From Halobaculum sp. MBLA0147 (GTDB lineage: Archaea > Halobacteriota > Halobacteria > Halobacteriales > Haloferacaceae): a stretch of DNA of 64,000 nucleotides. Under the pieces are notes generated by a model, which did not search any database, was not told the DNA's origin, and worked only from the letters and a program-made list of their open reading frames with translations. Positions 44,472-49,278 of this stretch are shown one piece after another. The stretch lies in assembly GCF_041361345.1 (NCBI RefSeq), contig NZ_JBGKAD010000001.1:1240001-1304000 (forward strand). The letters are read 5' to 3'. How positions within the stretch are numbered: the first letter of the stretch is position 1; each line of letters opens with the position of its first letter. Both the position numbers and the translations under genes were made by a program.

Positions 44472-45752
44472 ATGTCGACGGGAGACCAACGACCGCCGGT
44501 CGTGGGGACGCTCGCCGAGTACAGCGAGGCCCCCTTCGAGCGGCGCTGGGAGTGGAGCGACGGTGAAGACGTGGTCACGATGACGGGGCCCGAGGAGAAC
44601 CACCACCTCGTCGTCCACCCGGACTACGTCCGGCGCGTGCTGTTGGAGGACGACGACCAGTACGTGAAGTACGGCGCGTACGACTCCGTGTTCGGGAACG
44701 GACTGGTGAACGTCTACGGGGAGGAGTGGCGTGCCCAACGAGGCGCGATGCAGCCCGCGTTCACGCCCGACCGCGTGATCTCGTACTGCGAGACGATCCA
44801 GGACGTGGTCCGACCGGCAGTCGAAGCCCGGTCCGACGGGGAGGTCGTCGACGTGCGCGAGTTGATGACCGACCTGACGATGGAGGTGATGTTGGAGACG
44901 CTGTTCGGCGGGACGACCGACGAGGAGGGTGCGATCGGACGCGCGGCAGAACGGATCAACGAGTGGTTCATGGAGTCCGCCACCGCCGGCTCCGTCCCGG
45001 AGTCCGTCGAGTCGAACTTCGACCAGGGACTCGCGGAGATGACGGAGTTGATCGAGGGGATGATCGAAGACCGCGACGGTGACGCCGACAGCGAGGACCT
45101 CCTCTCGATGCTGGTCGCGATGGGACCCGACCACGAGGCGTCGTACACGGACGAGCGCATCCGCGACGAGATGATCACGCTGCTGTTCGCGGCCCACGAG
45201 ACGACCGCGCTCACGCTGGCGTACACGCTCTACCTGCTGGCGGACGCACCCGACGTGGTCGACCGCCTCCAGACGGAACTGGACGACGTGTTGGACGGCG
45301 CGTTCCCCGGCCCCGAGCACGTCCGGGAACTGTCGTACACCGAGCAGGTGATCGACGAGGCGATGCGAATCTACTCGCCGGCCCACTCGCTGTTCCGGGA
45401 GGCGACGGCGGACGTGGAGATCGGCCCCTACGAGATCCCCGAGGGTGACGTGGTGTACCTCCCACAGTGTGTGATCCACAGAGACGACCGCTGGTGGGAC
45501 GATCCCGAGACGTTCCGGCCCGAGCGGTTCGCGGGCGACGACGACAGACACCCGTTCGCGTACTTCCCGTTCGGAGCCGGCCCCCGCCGCTGTATCGGCG
45601 AGCGGTTCGCACGGGCAGAGGCGAAACTCGTCGTCGCGGCGTTCGCCGACGCCTTCACGTTCGACCGCGTCACCGAGGAGTTCGAGATGCTCGCCAGCCT
45701 GACGGCGGTCCCGGACCGACCGCTCGAACTCCGGTTCCGAGACCGAGCCTGA
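44472..45752 (+). CDS. Cytochrome P450
   Basis: 426 residues. I-helix oxygen-activation motif LLFAAHETTALTLAY, ExxR helix in DEAMRIYSP, PERF domain (FRPERF) and heme loop FPFGAGPRRCIGERFA with Cys374 as thiolate ligand. No membrane anchor is visible, so it is soluble and needs an unlinked ferredoxin reductase system. A CAAAATACTATC promoter lies 30-40 bases upstream. Convergent with the unknown gene at 45813, and 0.75 kb from the terpene-synthase-like gene; oxidation of its product is a possibility. Confidence 0.94.
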   Translation: MSTGDQRPPVVGTLAEYSEAPFERRWEWSDGEDVVTMTGPEENHHLVVHPDYVRRVLLEDDDQYVKYGAYDSVFGNGLVNVYGEEWRAQRGAMQPAFTPDRVISYCETIQDVVRPAVEARSDGEVVDVRELMTDLTMEVMLETLFGGTTDEEGAIGRAAERINEWFMESATAGSVPESVESNFDQGLAEMTELIEGMIEDRDGDADSEDLLSMLVAMGPDHEASYTDERIRDEMITLLFAAHETTALTLAYTLYLLADAPDVVDRLQTELDDVLDGAFPGPEHVRELSYTEQVIDEAMRIYSPAHSLFREATADVEIGPYEIPEGDVVYLPQCVIHRDDRWWDDPETFRPERFAGDDDRHPFAYFPFGAGPRRCIGERFARAEAKLVVAAFADAFTFDRVTEEFEMLASLTAVPDRPLELRFRDRA

Positions 45753-45812
45753 CCGCCGCGTCGCGAGTCGCTCCCACGGTGTGTCGGAGCGCGTCACCGA
45801 CGGGGCGGGGGA

Positions 45813-46376
45813 CTACCAGGAGATCTCGAAGGCGGCCTGCTCGTCGGGCTCGGGCTCGGCCGACTGGATCGACGGTTGGGCGTCACTCAGATCCTGGACG
45901 ACGCCGACGAACACGCCCTCGGCGTGCGGGACGGTGAACGGGTAGTCCTCGGTGACGCCGACGTGGGCGCGACTGGCGCCGAGTGACTCGAAGGTGTACT
46001 TCCCGGCGGGGAACTCGCGGCTACTGTTCCGGAACGCCTCCTTGTGCATCGCGGCGAGCGCACCGAGCCCCTCCATCGGGGTCGAGACCTCCGGCGGCCA
46101 CTCGACGGCCTTCGCCGACTCCTTGCCCCCTTCGCGCATCGTCGCCTCGCCAACCTCCTCGCCGAGACTCTGGTACGCGGCGACCACGTCGTCGGTCGTG
46201 TACCACGTCTCGGCGTCTAACTCGCCGAGGTGTTCGCTGAACAGTTCGCGTGCCTTCTTCTCGAACACCCGCGACACCTCGCCGGCACTCTGGACGGTCG
46301 CGAGCGGGTAGCGGCCGATGACTTCCGAGTCGGGATCGTAGCTCGTCACGACCGCAACTCTCCCTTCTAGAGACAT
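45813..46376 (-). CDS. Unknown protein, conserved-looking cytosolic domain
   Basis: 187 residues, not recognised. It starts VAVVTSYDPDSEVIGRYPL, has a helical stretch (VSRVFEKKARELFSEHLGEL) and a C-terminal beta-rich part, VGVTEDYPFTVPHAEGVFVGVVQ. No signal, membrane helix or metal motif. It lies between the P450 and terpene-synthase-like genes, and in the same direction as the latter with a gap of 123 bases; shared function is possible but unproven. Confidence 0.6.
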   Translation of the reverse strand: MSLEGRVAVVTSYDPDSEVIGRYPLATVQSAGEVSRVFEKKARELFSEHLGELDAETWYTTDDVVAAYQSLGEEVGEATMREGGKESAKAVEWPPEVSTPMEGLGALAAMHKEAFRNSSREFPAGKYTFESLGASRAHVGVTEDYPFTVPHAEGVFVGVVQDLSDAQPSIQSAEPEPDEQAAFEISW

Positions 46377-46499
46377 AAATTTAGCGCAGAAGCTTACAAC
46401 TCTCTTCGGTGTTGGTATCACGTGCCACTCTGTGACACACAACTGGTCACCGACCGTTCTCGCAGGTCGACGGTGGGCTGGTTCCGGCAGGTTCGGCGG

Positions 46500-47594
46500 T
46501 CAGCGGTGCCCCTCTGTCGCGAAGTGACTCTGCATGAGCCACTCCATCTTGGCGACCATCTCGGAGCTGTCGAGCGACGACATCCCGAAGTCACGCTCTC
46601 GGAGCCGGTCGCGCCGTTGTTTCCAGTTCCAGGTGAACCGCTCGGAGAGTCCGGCGGCTCTGATCCGGTCGATCACCGCCTCCGGCGACAGCTCGCCGGC
46701 GTCCAACGCGTCGAGGTCCGCCTCGTCGATCACACCCTGGTGGAGCGCCTCGACGATCACGCCGGCACTGTAGTCGTGCTCGTGGACCTCTCGCTCCCAG
46801 GTGATGATCCAGTTACCCAGCCGCCACATGTGCTGGAGTTCGTAGGTGACCCGCCGGAACGCCTGGTAGTCGTCGTGGTCGAACGCCGGGGAGAACATCA
46901 GGTCGATCCCCCAGAACGTGTACAGCCCGATGGCCTGCGTCTCGAAGTACCACGTCTCCTCGGGGTTCATGAACGAGGGGTAGTCCGCCGAGAGACGCGC
47001 GTAGTCCATCCCCTGGTTCGCCTGTCGGAGGTTGAACAGGAACGGCTCGACGAACTCCTCGAACCGCGGCGCCGACTCCAGTCGGTCCATCAGCGCCTCC
47101 CACACCTGGCGAGTACTCTTCGGGTAGTCCTCGTCGATGTCGTCGCGCTCCCAGTCGGGCCGTGCGGTCGGGTACGGCGCCTTCGCCAACTCCCAGAAGG
47201 TCGCCTCGTCGCCGAGCTTCTCCGCGGCGTCGTCGACGAGCGTGATGTAGATGGACACCAGGGTCTTCGCCTCGTGGGCAGCCTCGAAGTGTTCCTCCGG
47301 GACGGTGCTCAGCGTCAGTGGCTCGCCGAAGATGTGCGAGAGCCACTTCCAGAGGTACAGTTGTCGGTCGCCGAGTATCCCGTCGCCCTCGACGATCTCT
47401 CGGATCCGGGGAGACAGCTCCGTCTCGGAGACGGCGTCGAACAGTTCCTCACGCATCTCGTCGCTCAAGTCGAGTCCGAGATCCGTCACGCTCGCACGGC
47501 GGTCGACGGCGGACATCGACGGGACTCTGATGCTGGACCCGGTCTCGACGGGCCCGTCTACACTCGGTGGCTCGTGACGTGCGTCCTGAGACAT
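46500..47594 (-). CDS. Class I terpene-synthase-like protein
   Basis: 364 residues. All-alpha protein of the length of bacterial sesquiterpene synthases. Aspartate-rich motif DDAAE at 121-125 (in IYITLVDDAAEKLGDE) and an NSE-type motif N261-xxx-T265-xxx-E269 (NWIITWERE) are spaced 140 residues apart, as in class I cyclases that bind three Mg ions and diphosphate. Overall helical packing matches, but I cannot test homology, so other diphosphate-processing helical families remain possible. ATG 47594 is favoured because TATTAAACT (minus strand) gives a leaderless start; a palindrome lies between promoter and start. Confidence 0.68.
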   Translation of the reverse strand: MSQDARHEPPSVDGPVETGSSIRVPSMSAVDRRASVTDLGLDLSDEMREELFDAVSETELSPRIREIVEGDGILGDRQLYLWKWLSHIFGEPLTLSTVPEEHFEAAHEAKTLVSIYITLVDDAAEKLGDEATFWELAKAPYPTARPDWERDDIDEDYPKSTRQVWEALMDRLESAPRFEEFVEPFLFNLRQANQGMDYARLSADYPSFMNPEETWYFETQAIGLYTFWGIDLMFSPAFDHDDYQAFRRVTYELQHMWRLGNWIITWEREVHEHDYSAGVIVEALHQGVIDEADLDALDAGELSPEAVIDRIRAAGLSERFTWNWKQRRDRLRERDFGMSSLDSSEMVAKMEWLMQSHFATEGHR

Positions 47595-47613: not shown

Positions 47614-47980
47614 AGTAGTTTAATATTATCGTATTTAGACGCTTGTTAGTTGTCGAACATTCGAATTCTTCGGCAACTATCTCTCTAACGATGGTTTCGA
47701 AAGTGGGTGGACATTCAGAATGTCTACGACGTGAACGAACGAGAGACATCTCTACTCACGGTGACCGGTTCGAGCCGAAGTATCCGAGATTCGAGTTGGT
47801 TGCATCCCGTCCCGGCTCGTCGGATAGTTCACGCGACGGACACCGCGTCGTTGGCCCGAGATCGATCTCGGTGGAGGTCTGTCCGTCGGAGACCGACGGG
47901 TTCATACACACAGTCCAGTGTCGAGTCTCGTCCCCGTCGGTGGGACAGGTCGGTGACGTAGGACACACGACTGACAAAGG

Positions 47981-48057: not shown

Positions 48058-49278
48058 ATGACACGAGACACTCGAACGGACGGTCGGCAGACCGGCGCGG
48101 GCGGGACCGACGTGGAGACGCACGAACACGACGACGTAGCCCCCGAGGAGGGAGGTGGTGGCGCACCGGGTGGTCCACCACTGACGGACGGCGGCGAGCG
48201 GATCCGCGAGCGGCCGGAGCGGACCGACGACCGGACGACGACTGCCGACGAGACGGAGGCGAACGGCGACCGGACGACGACTGCAGAAGCGACCGAGGTG
48301 GAGACGGCCGACGAGCGAGACCGCTGTCCCGAGTGTGGTGGGACGGTCGTCAACGACGCGACCCACGGCGAGACCGTCTGTGCCGACTGTGGGCTCGTCG
48401 TCGAAGAGGACGAGATCGACCGCGGGCCGGAGTGGCGCGCGTTCGACTCGAGCGAGCGCGACCAGAAGAGTCGGGTCGGGGCGCCGACGACGAACATGCT
48501 CCACGACCACGGACTCTCGACGAACATCGGCTGGCAGGACCGGGACGCCTACGGCAACACGCTGTCGGCGAGCCAGCGCCAGAAGATGCAGCGGCTCCGC
48601 ACGTGGAACGAGCGCCTCCGCACCTCCGACCACAGCGAGCGGAACCTGAAGCAGGCGCTCGGGGAGATCGAGCGGATGGCCTCCGCGTTGGGCCTGCCGG
48701 AGAACGTCCGCGAGACGGCCAGCGTGATCTACCGGCGGGCGCTGGAGGAGGACCTCCTCCCCGGCCGCTCCATCGAGGGGATCGCGACGGCGTCGTTACA
48801 CGCCGCCGCGCGGATGGCGGGAGTCCCCCGGTCGATCGACGAGGTGGCACGCGTCTCCCGTGTGGACGAGGAGACGTTCCAGCGGGCGTACCGCTACATC
48901 GTCAAGGAGTTGGAGTTGGAGGTCCAGCCCGCGGACCCGGCGGAGTACCTGCCGCGGTTCGCCTCGAAGCTGGAGCTGTCCGACGAGACGGAGCGGCGGG
49001 CCCGCGAGTTGCTCGCGACCGGCAAGGAGGCGGCGGTCCACTCCGGGAAGTCGCCGGTCGGACTCGCCGCCGCCGCACTGTACGCGGCGGGCGTGTTGAC
49101 CAACGCGGACCTCACACAGAAGCAGGTCAGCGAGGTGACGGACATCTCCGAGGTGACGATCCGCAACCGGTACCAGGAGCTGTTGGAGACCGCCGCCGCG
49201 GCCGAGGAGGCCGACGGTGCCGGGACGCCACCCTCGAACGGAGACGGCGGCGAGGTCCCGGTCGGCGTCGACGGCTGA
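48058..49278 (+). CDS. tfb: Transcription initiation factor TFB with extended N-terminus
   Basis: 406 residues. Zinc ribbon from Cys90 (CPECGG...CADCG), B-finger region with EWRAFDSSERDQKSRVG, and two cyclin folds. It binds TBP-DNA and recruits RNA polymerase. The first 89 residues are acidic and Thr/Glu-rich; most TFBs have only 10-25 residues before the ribbon, so this is either a distinct paralogue or an upstream start. The ATG at 48058 fits the leader hairpin. Haloarchaea carry several TFBs with different target sets. Confidence 0.93.
   Translation: MTRDTRTDGRQTGAGGTDVETHEHDDVAPEEGGGGAPGGPPLTDGGERIRERPERTDDRTTTADETEANGDRTTTAEATEVETADERDRCPECGGTVVNDATHGETVCADCGLVVEEDEIDRGPEWRAFDSSERDQKSRVGAPTTNMLHDHGLSTNIGWQDRDAYGNTLSASQRQKMQRLRTWNERLRTSDHSERNLKQALGEIERMASALGLPENVRETASVIYRRALEEDLLPGRSIEGIATASLHAAARMAGVPRSIDEVARVSRVDEETFQRAYRYIVKELELEVQPADPAEYLPRFASKLELSDETERRARELLATGKEAAVHSGKSPVGLAAAALYAAGVLTNADLTQKQVSEVTDISEVTIRNRYQELLETAAAAEEADGAGTPPSNGDGGEVPVGVDG

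Follow-up and report, generated by a model that had tools for sequence, protein, structure and literature searches.

The 64,000-nucleotide stretch of the Halobaculum sp. MBLA0147 genome analysed here (the window) carries, at 46500-47594 on the minus strand, a gene that probably encodes a class I terpene synthase, belonging to a family of haloarchaeal proteins overlooked by current annotation. The family itself is real, conserved and unannotated, with the class I terpene synthase fold and the metal-binding triads of the superfamily. A protein search found it in 118 of 391 genomes of the class, about three in ten, with a single copy in the window's own genome. Next to the synthase gene lie genes for a small protein with a fold resembling H-NOX and V4R domains and for a cytochrome P450, a setting from which a terpenoid locus had initially been proposed.

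Translated from the ATG at 47594, the synthase open reading frame (ORF) gives 364 residues (367 from a GTG nine bases upstream), and in the 364-residue translation the two motifs on which the initial annotation was built, DDAAE at 121-125 and N261-xxx-T265-xxx-E269, 140 residues apart, lie at exactly the positions it gave. Relative to two same-genus relatives, differences at codon positions 1/2/3 amount to 0.195/0.143/0.385 and 0.214/0.168/0.387; the third base differs most, which fits a gene under protein-level constraint. Motif conservation was assessed across 80 neighbourhoods (L031-L110; L numbers denote fetched neighbourhoods or loci, G numbers sampled genomes) that were picked from the family matches with a weighting towards the best scores and many genera and are not a random sample. 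The window protein and 81 ORFs out of these neighbourhoods, collected by whole-protein similarity without use of the motifs, make up a family alignment of 82 sequences, of which 68 (set A1) remain once rows with 80% or more identity to a retained one are taken out. D122, N261 and E269 are present in all 82 sequences, as is R258, three residues ahead of N261. Residue 265 is Thr in 81 and Ser in one, so that the triad N-S/T-E occupies second-motif positions 1, 5 and 9 in 82 of 82, while residue 121 is Asp in 79 and Asn in three and residue 125 is Glu in 72 and Asp in ten. Since the sample was blind to the motifs, the invariance of D122, N261 and E269 means that they are more than chance. Note that a further set of 62 sequences (A2) was gathered by a pattern containing the second motif, so that motif invariance within it is partly by construction; the claim of invariance rests on the 82-sequence alignment and A1, not on A2. 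A paralogue at L034, from a genome (G121) with three family members, has NDxxD as its first motif.

The predicted structure points in the same direction. An AlphaFold2 model computed on A2 is confident (predicted local distance difference test, pLDDT, 90.8; predicted template-modelling score, pTM, 0.87) and all helical from residue 36 onward. A Foldseek comparison with the PDB lists nothing but class I terpene synthases among its best 50 rows, down to an E of 5.6e-5. VIA-align matches the model to T-muurolol synthase (9hqd) with Z 22.0 and a root-mean-square deviation (rmsd) of 3.1 Å over 276 residues, and the 50 rows shown are again all class I terpene synthases, of bacterial, fungal and plant origin and mostly cyclases. 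The stated VIA-align background for helical models reaches Z of about 13-14, so that a Z of 22.0 stands far above it. The class I helical bundle anticipated by the initial annotation is thus what the model predicts, and what every listed PDB match has in common.

Profile libraries recognise the family and pass over the window protein. At E <= 1, 50 of the 68 A1 members match PF19086 (Terpene_syn_C_2), with a best E of 8.1e-8, and 12 match PF03936; NCBIfam gives nothing consistent on the same members. At its longest, the PF19086 match in a single member runs from profile position 3 to 179 of 199 and takes in both motif regions, and all ten members scored singly fall under the curated cut-off. 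A six-frame PF19086 search of the 391 genomes gave matches in 62, of which 50 lie above the curated cut-off, canonical synthases of G182 and G230 included; the family search, with its 118 genomes, had found all of these 62 but three (G182, G069 and G272), an overlap of 59. As judged by profile scores, the family straddles the Pfam threshold, with the window member below it. When the family is aligned by hhalign to four canonical haloarchaeal synthases, DD falls on DD and N/T/E on N/S/E.

A number of observations weigh against the assignment of the window gene to the terpene synthases. For the window protein, neither Pfam nor NCBIfam offers a match even at E <= 1, and a PF19086 search of the window's genome returns no match. 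In a PDB profile search with the family, the best match (Sat1646) is not significant at E 0.12, and the hhalign comparison, taken as a whole, is weak (E 0.077; probability 0.73 by hhalign's own scale). Sequence identity to the fold matches is 7-15% (Foldseek and VIA-align rows), and Foldseek's query-normalised TM-scores lie between 0.40 and 0.55, with large rmsd. Moreover, all 68 A1 members have Trp as residue 262, the second position of the second motif, in the context N-W-x-x-T-W-x-R-E. According to PMC9814573, the second-motif consensus has Asp at this position, and that Asp is a listed Mg ligand in Sat1646. The family departs here from the strict consensus of the canonical bacterial subgroup, (N,D)DXX(S,T)XXX(E,D). 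With fold and metal triads present but this Asp replaced, we file it as a variant family, outside the strict-consensus subgroup.

Comparison with known enzymes shows where the variant sits. PMC9814573 also describes a sensor Arg220 on helix H of Sat1646 that precedes Asn223. The window protein is like the class I diterpene synthases Sat1646 and Stt4548 in the spacing of its sensor-type Arg, which lies three positions ahead of the Asn that opens the second motif (R258/N261 versus Arg220/Asn223). It is unlike them in that Sat1646 uses copalyl diphosphate, whereas the window's genome gave no match to SQHop_cyclase_C, the C-terminal domain of squalene/hopene-type class II cyclases (a control search was positive in 2 of 14 genomes). 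With bacterial PF19086 synthases of the T-muurolol, epi-isozizaene, LrdC and CyS type it shares a single alpha-domain bundle (Z about 20-22 over 260-290 residues) and DDxxE plus the N/T/E triad, but identity to these is 7-12% and position 2 of the NSE motif is Trp. Bacterial terpene synthases carry a C-terminal RY pair, where the haloarchaeal family has an SRGxK-type ending. Closer to home, G182 and G230 encode canonical synthases that score between 1e-38 and 1e-49 against PF19086 and have a Polyketide_cyc2-like domain fused at the N-terminus (SRPBCC-terpene synthase). These too are haloarchaeal class I synthases, with a P450 near one; unlike the window family they score strongly against PF19086, keep NDxxSxxxE and carry the extra fused domain, and they apparently represent a separate arrival.

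If the enzyme works as its fold and motifs suggest, the residues D121/D122/E125 and N261/T265/E269 would hold three Mg2+ ions, and through these the diphosphate group of a linear prenyl substrate would be bound, probably that of geranylgeranyl diphosphate or farnesyl diphosphate. Mg2+-assisted loss of the diphosphate would follow, and the resulting carbocation would be guided to a terpene, probably a cyclic one. The window's genome encodes two polyprenyl synthases (PF00348), located away from the synthase locus; together with the lack of a SQHop_cyclase_C match in that genome, this makes a linear substrate likelier than copalyl diphosphate, and a class II partner supplying the latter was rejected on the same search.

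There are a number of scenarios in which the gene would be something other than a cyclase. Fold and metal motifs cannot separate cyclisation from simple ionisation, and a linalool/nerolidol synthase (5nx5) is among the VIA-align matches; an enzyme of the class I synthase fold that yields only a linear alcohol or alkene, of the nerolidol or geranyllinalool type, is nevertheless unlikely in our estimate, the listed fold matches being mostly cyclases, although this is no test of product. A relative of prenyl diphosphate synthases or of squalene/phytoene synthases, serving lipids or carotenoids, would have the superfamily fold in common, and haloarchaea use such enzymes heavily. We rejected this identity as extremely unlikely: at E <= 1 the window protein is matched by neither polyprenyl_synt (PF00348) nor the squalene/phytoene synthase Pfam, both of which are also missing from the families listed for the 68 members, the second motif is NxxxTxxxE rather than a second DDxxD, and every fold match listed is a terpene synthase. 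The Trp within the metal motif, and neighbours of the sensor type (H-NOX-like, BAT, HalOD1 and, by the L034 paralogue, a protoglobin transducer), might instead suggest a catalytically dead, synthase-like ligand sensor in line with its regulatory surroundings. However, six metal-binding positions and the sensor-type Arg are kept in nearly all members, and we consider a dead sensor very improbable.

Having argued for a probable synthase, we turn to the partners that its neighbourhood suggests. The P450 placed beside the synthase by the initial annotation is there (Table 1), and its translation has the haem-thiolate Cys motif FGAGPRRCIG, plus AHETT and EAMR. The proposal of a terpenoid locus with a P450 holds in part: the cluster of synthase, H-NOX-like gene and P450 is kept in the window, in L031 (a same-genus genome) and in L112 (a related metagenome-assembled genome, MAG), but a P450 is near the synthase in only 4 of the 80 neighbourhoods (L031, L078, L092 and L098), which tells against such a locus and eliminates a dedicated P450 as a class-wide rule. 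A real synthase with an unrelated P450 next to it, acting alone or with distant partners in a neighbourhood that reflects regulation rather than a pathway, is accordingly a serious possibility, if somewhat short of an even one. One of the four neighbourhoods is the same-genus genome, P450 matches occur in 342 of the 391 genomes so that proximity can be chance, and the recurrent neighbours of the family are regulators, with HalOD1 proteins in 35 of 81 synthase neighbourhoods and BAT/PAS/GAF/HTH_10 proteins in 31, directly upstream in 18 (each cluster was assigned from the Pfam matches of a single representative). On the other side stand the conserved three-gene set and a rough estimate in which 0.44 P450s are expected within 3 kb of the 80 loci, given an assumed density of 3.5 P450s per 3.8 Mb, against three lineages observed, the loci not being independent. 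P450 tailoring of the synthase product in the window's lineage is plausible, with about an even chance or a little less; in that small lineage, and with lower confidence than attaches to the synthase step, the neighbouring P450 would oxidise what the synthase makes. In G345 a paralogous P450 (59% identical; L228:6992-8929) is convergent with an H-NOX-like gene, on a fetched stretch without a synthase whose contig ends just beyond.

The gene between synthase and P450 shares the strand of the synthase gene and follows it downstream after about 120 bases. It had been called an unknown, and this description stands insofar as its product has no Pfam match of its own and no convincing NCBIfam match. 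Its predicted model, built on five sequences only (pLDDT 85.9, pTM 0.81), matches Tt H-NOX (3nvr) over the whole domain (Z 12.9, 162 residues); TRAPP subunits come second, at Z < 8. Of 42 relatives, 13 have a V4R match (best 3.8e-8) and 13 a DUF2378 match. The haem motif of H-NOX proteins is YxSxR. Across the 42 relatives this motif is not kept, Y127 occurring in 38 and the Ser position being Phe, Val or Tyr in 36, and the helix His is uneven, with His at position 111 in 18 and at position 115 in 30. Because YxSxR is not kept, we do not file the protein as an H-NOX haem protein; with lower confidence, it may bind a small molecule (a gas, haem or a hydrophobic ligand) as sensor or carrier. H-NOX-like genes are also found beside the synthase in L031 (two copies), L032, which is the same locus as L111 (two, with the contig ending right after the second), L112 (two) and L037 (one). 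The family is, however, large, with matches in 109 of the 391 genomes and at least eight copies each in the window's genome and in G301, in the form of scattered paralogues (L221-L227 in the window's genome, G000; L236-L238 in G301), and the seven further copies from the window's genome have no synthase or P450 match beside them. Both points weaken the idea of a synthase-specific partner.

Table 1. Coordinates of the features discussed (window positions unless a locus is given).
Feature	Position	Strand	Basis
Class I terpene synthase-like gene, alpha domain only	46500..47594	-	ORF, predicted fold, family PF19086 match, invariant motifs
Codons of first metal-binding motif, DDAAE, residues 121-125	47220..47234	-	Position from ORF; conservation in alignment
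Codons R258-E269, R-LG-NWIITWERE: sensor-type Arg plus second metal-binding motif, Trp262 replacing usual second Asp	46788..46823	-	Conservation; comparison with Sat1646 as given in PMC9814573
Cytochrome P450	44472..45752	+	PF00067 E 2.5e-72; convergent with synthase and H-NOX-like genes; clustered with synthase in L031, L112
187-aa single-domain protein, H-NOX/V4R-like fold	45813..46376	-	Predicted model; V4R and DUF2378 in relatives; adjacency in relatives
AT-rich promoter-like element, CGATAATATTAA on gene strand	47620..47631	-	Kept upstream of synthase in both same-genus relatives; promoter role inferred
15-base perfect inverted repeat between AT-rich element and start codon	47599..47613	.	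Sole copy in window
Canonical synthase genes, G182	L248:7500-8936; L248:9660-11051	-; +	Each beside polyprenyl synthase gene
Canonical synthase genes, G230	L249:1959-3392; L250:492-1889	+; -	P450 near one, at L250

Plants, fungi and bacteria are the groups for which cyclic terpenoids are characteristic. With a family that occurs in 118 of 391 genomes and sits at or under detection cut-offs, the terpenoid chemistry of archaea would become directly testable, with genes that can be cloned, enzymes that tolerate salt and candidate partners in prospect. A search of titles and listed abstracts in one literature library retrieved no paper describing a class I terpene synthase from an archaeon, the sole trace being a cited preprint. 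This preprint, from Samusevich and colleagues, is said to report the first active archaeal terpene synthases. Its title, as it appears in the reference list of PMC12797696, claims archaeal terpenoid biosynthesis (Samusevich et al., bioRxiv 2024.01.29.577750), so that priority is uncertain and the existence of terpene synthases in archaea may not be a new finding in itself. In the available part of PMC8600319, 'terpene' clusters are reported in Halomicroarcula, and no class I terpene synthase is mentioned there.

Regarding distribution, three MAGs supply the family members outside the haloarchaea: one of an unclassified archaeon (L186), one of Methanohalobium (L189) and one binned as Lysobacteraceae (L190); such binning may be wrong. 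Virus-borne copies were looked for and discarded: 17 pattern matches in viral contigs included no relatives of the family. Plasmid records that carry names and cover at least 80% of the synthase are labelled 'hypothetical protein' in six of six cases. At L180 the synthase may be part of a fusion, a long frame extending beyond the motif, but the gene caller splits that frame. In a quick tree of 123 rows, with long branches and no outgroup, the window synthase groups with L111 and L031 (support 99), and this group joins L112, L037, L113 and L114 (support 100; 7 of the 123 rows).

Genes for HalOD1- and BAT-type regulators are common in haloarchaea, and many of the loci are close relatives; even so, the regulator-rich neighbourhoods suggest that the synthase may be regulated. 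One might go further and imagine a largely unseen class I synthase branch of the haloarchaea's own (NWxxTWxRE) that makes dedicated infochemicals, with synthesis under the control of adjacent light, redox and gas sensors (BAT, HalOD1, H-NOX-like, protoglobin transducer), and with the H-NOX-like protein of the window's lineage binding the terpenoid or its P450-oxidised form. We regard this as a long shot. The inverted repeat ahead of the window gene is possibly an operator or possibly chance; as a conserved operator it was rejected, given that it was not found upstream of the synthase in the same-genus relatives.

Some further neighbours deserve mention. Note that neighbouring genes were called by our own composition-based script, with which short neighbours are unreliable. 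A TFB (TFIIB) gene, at 48058-49278 on the plus strand of the window, adjoins or is close to the synthase, and the same is seen in L031, L032, L112 and L037; reaching another family of the order (L037), this proximity is possibly ancestral synteny. A conserved protein of about 120 residues without a Pfam match is encoded ahead of the synthase, on the same strand, at L033:4010-4375(-) and L036:10258-10620(-). Directly downstream of the L034 paralogue is the gene for a HemAT-like transducer, a protoglobin fused to a methyl-accepting chemotaxis protein (L034:9994-11592, plus strand). Finally, on the contig binned as Lysobacteraceae, an S-adenosylmethionine methyltransferase gene (L190:195-1028, plus strand) comes immediately before the family member, an order which we take to resemble that of methylated terpene pathways.

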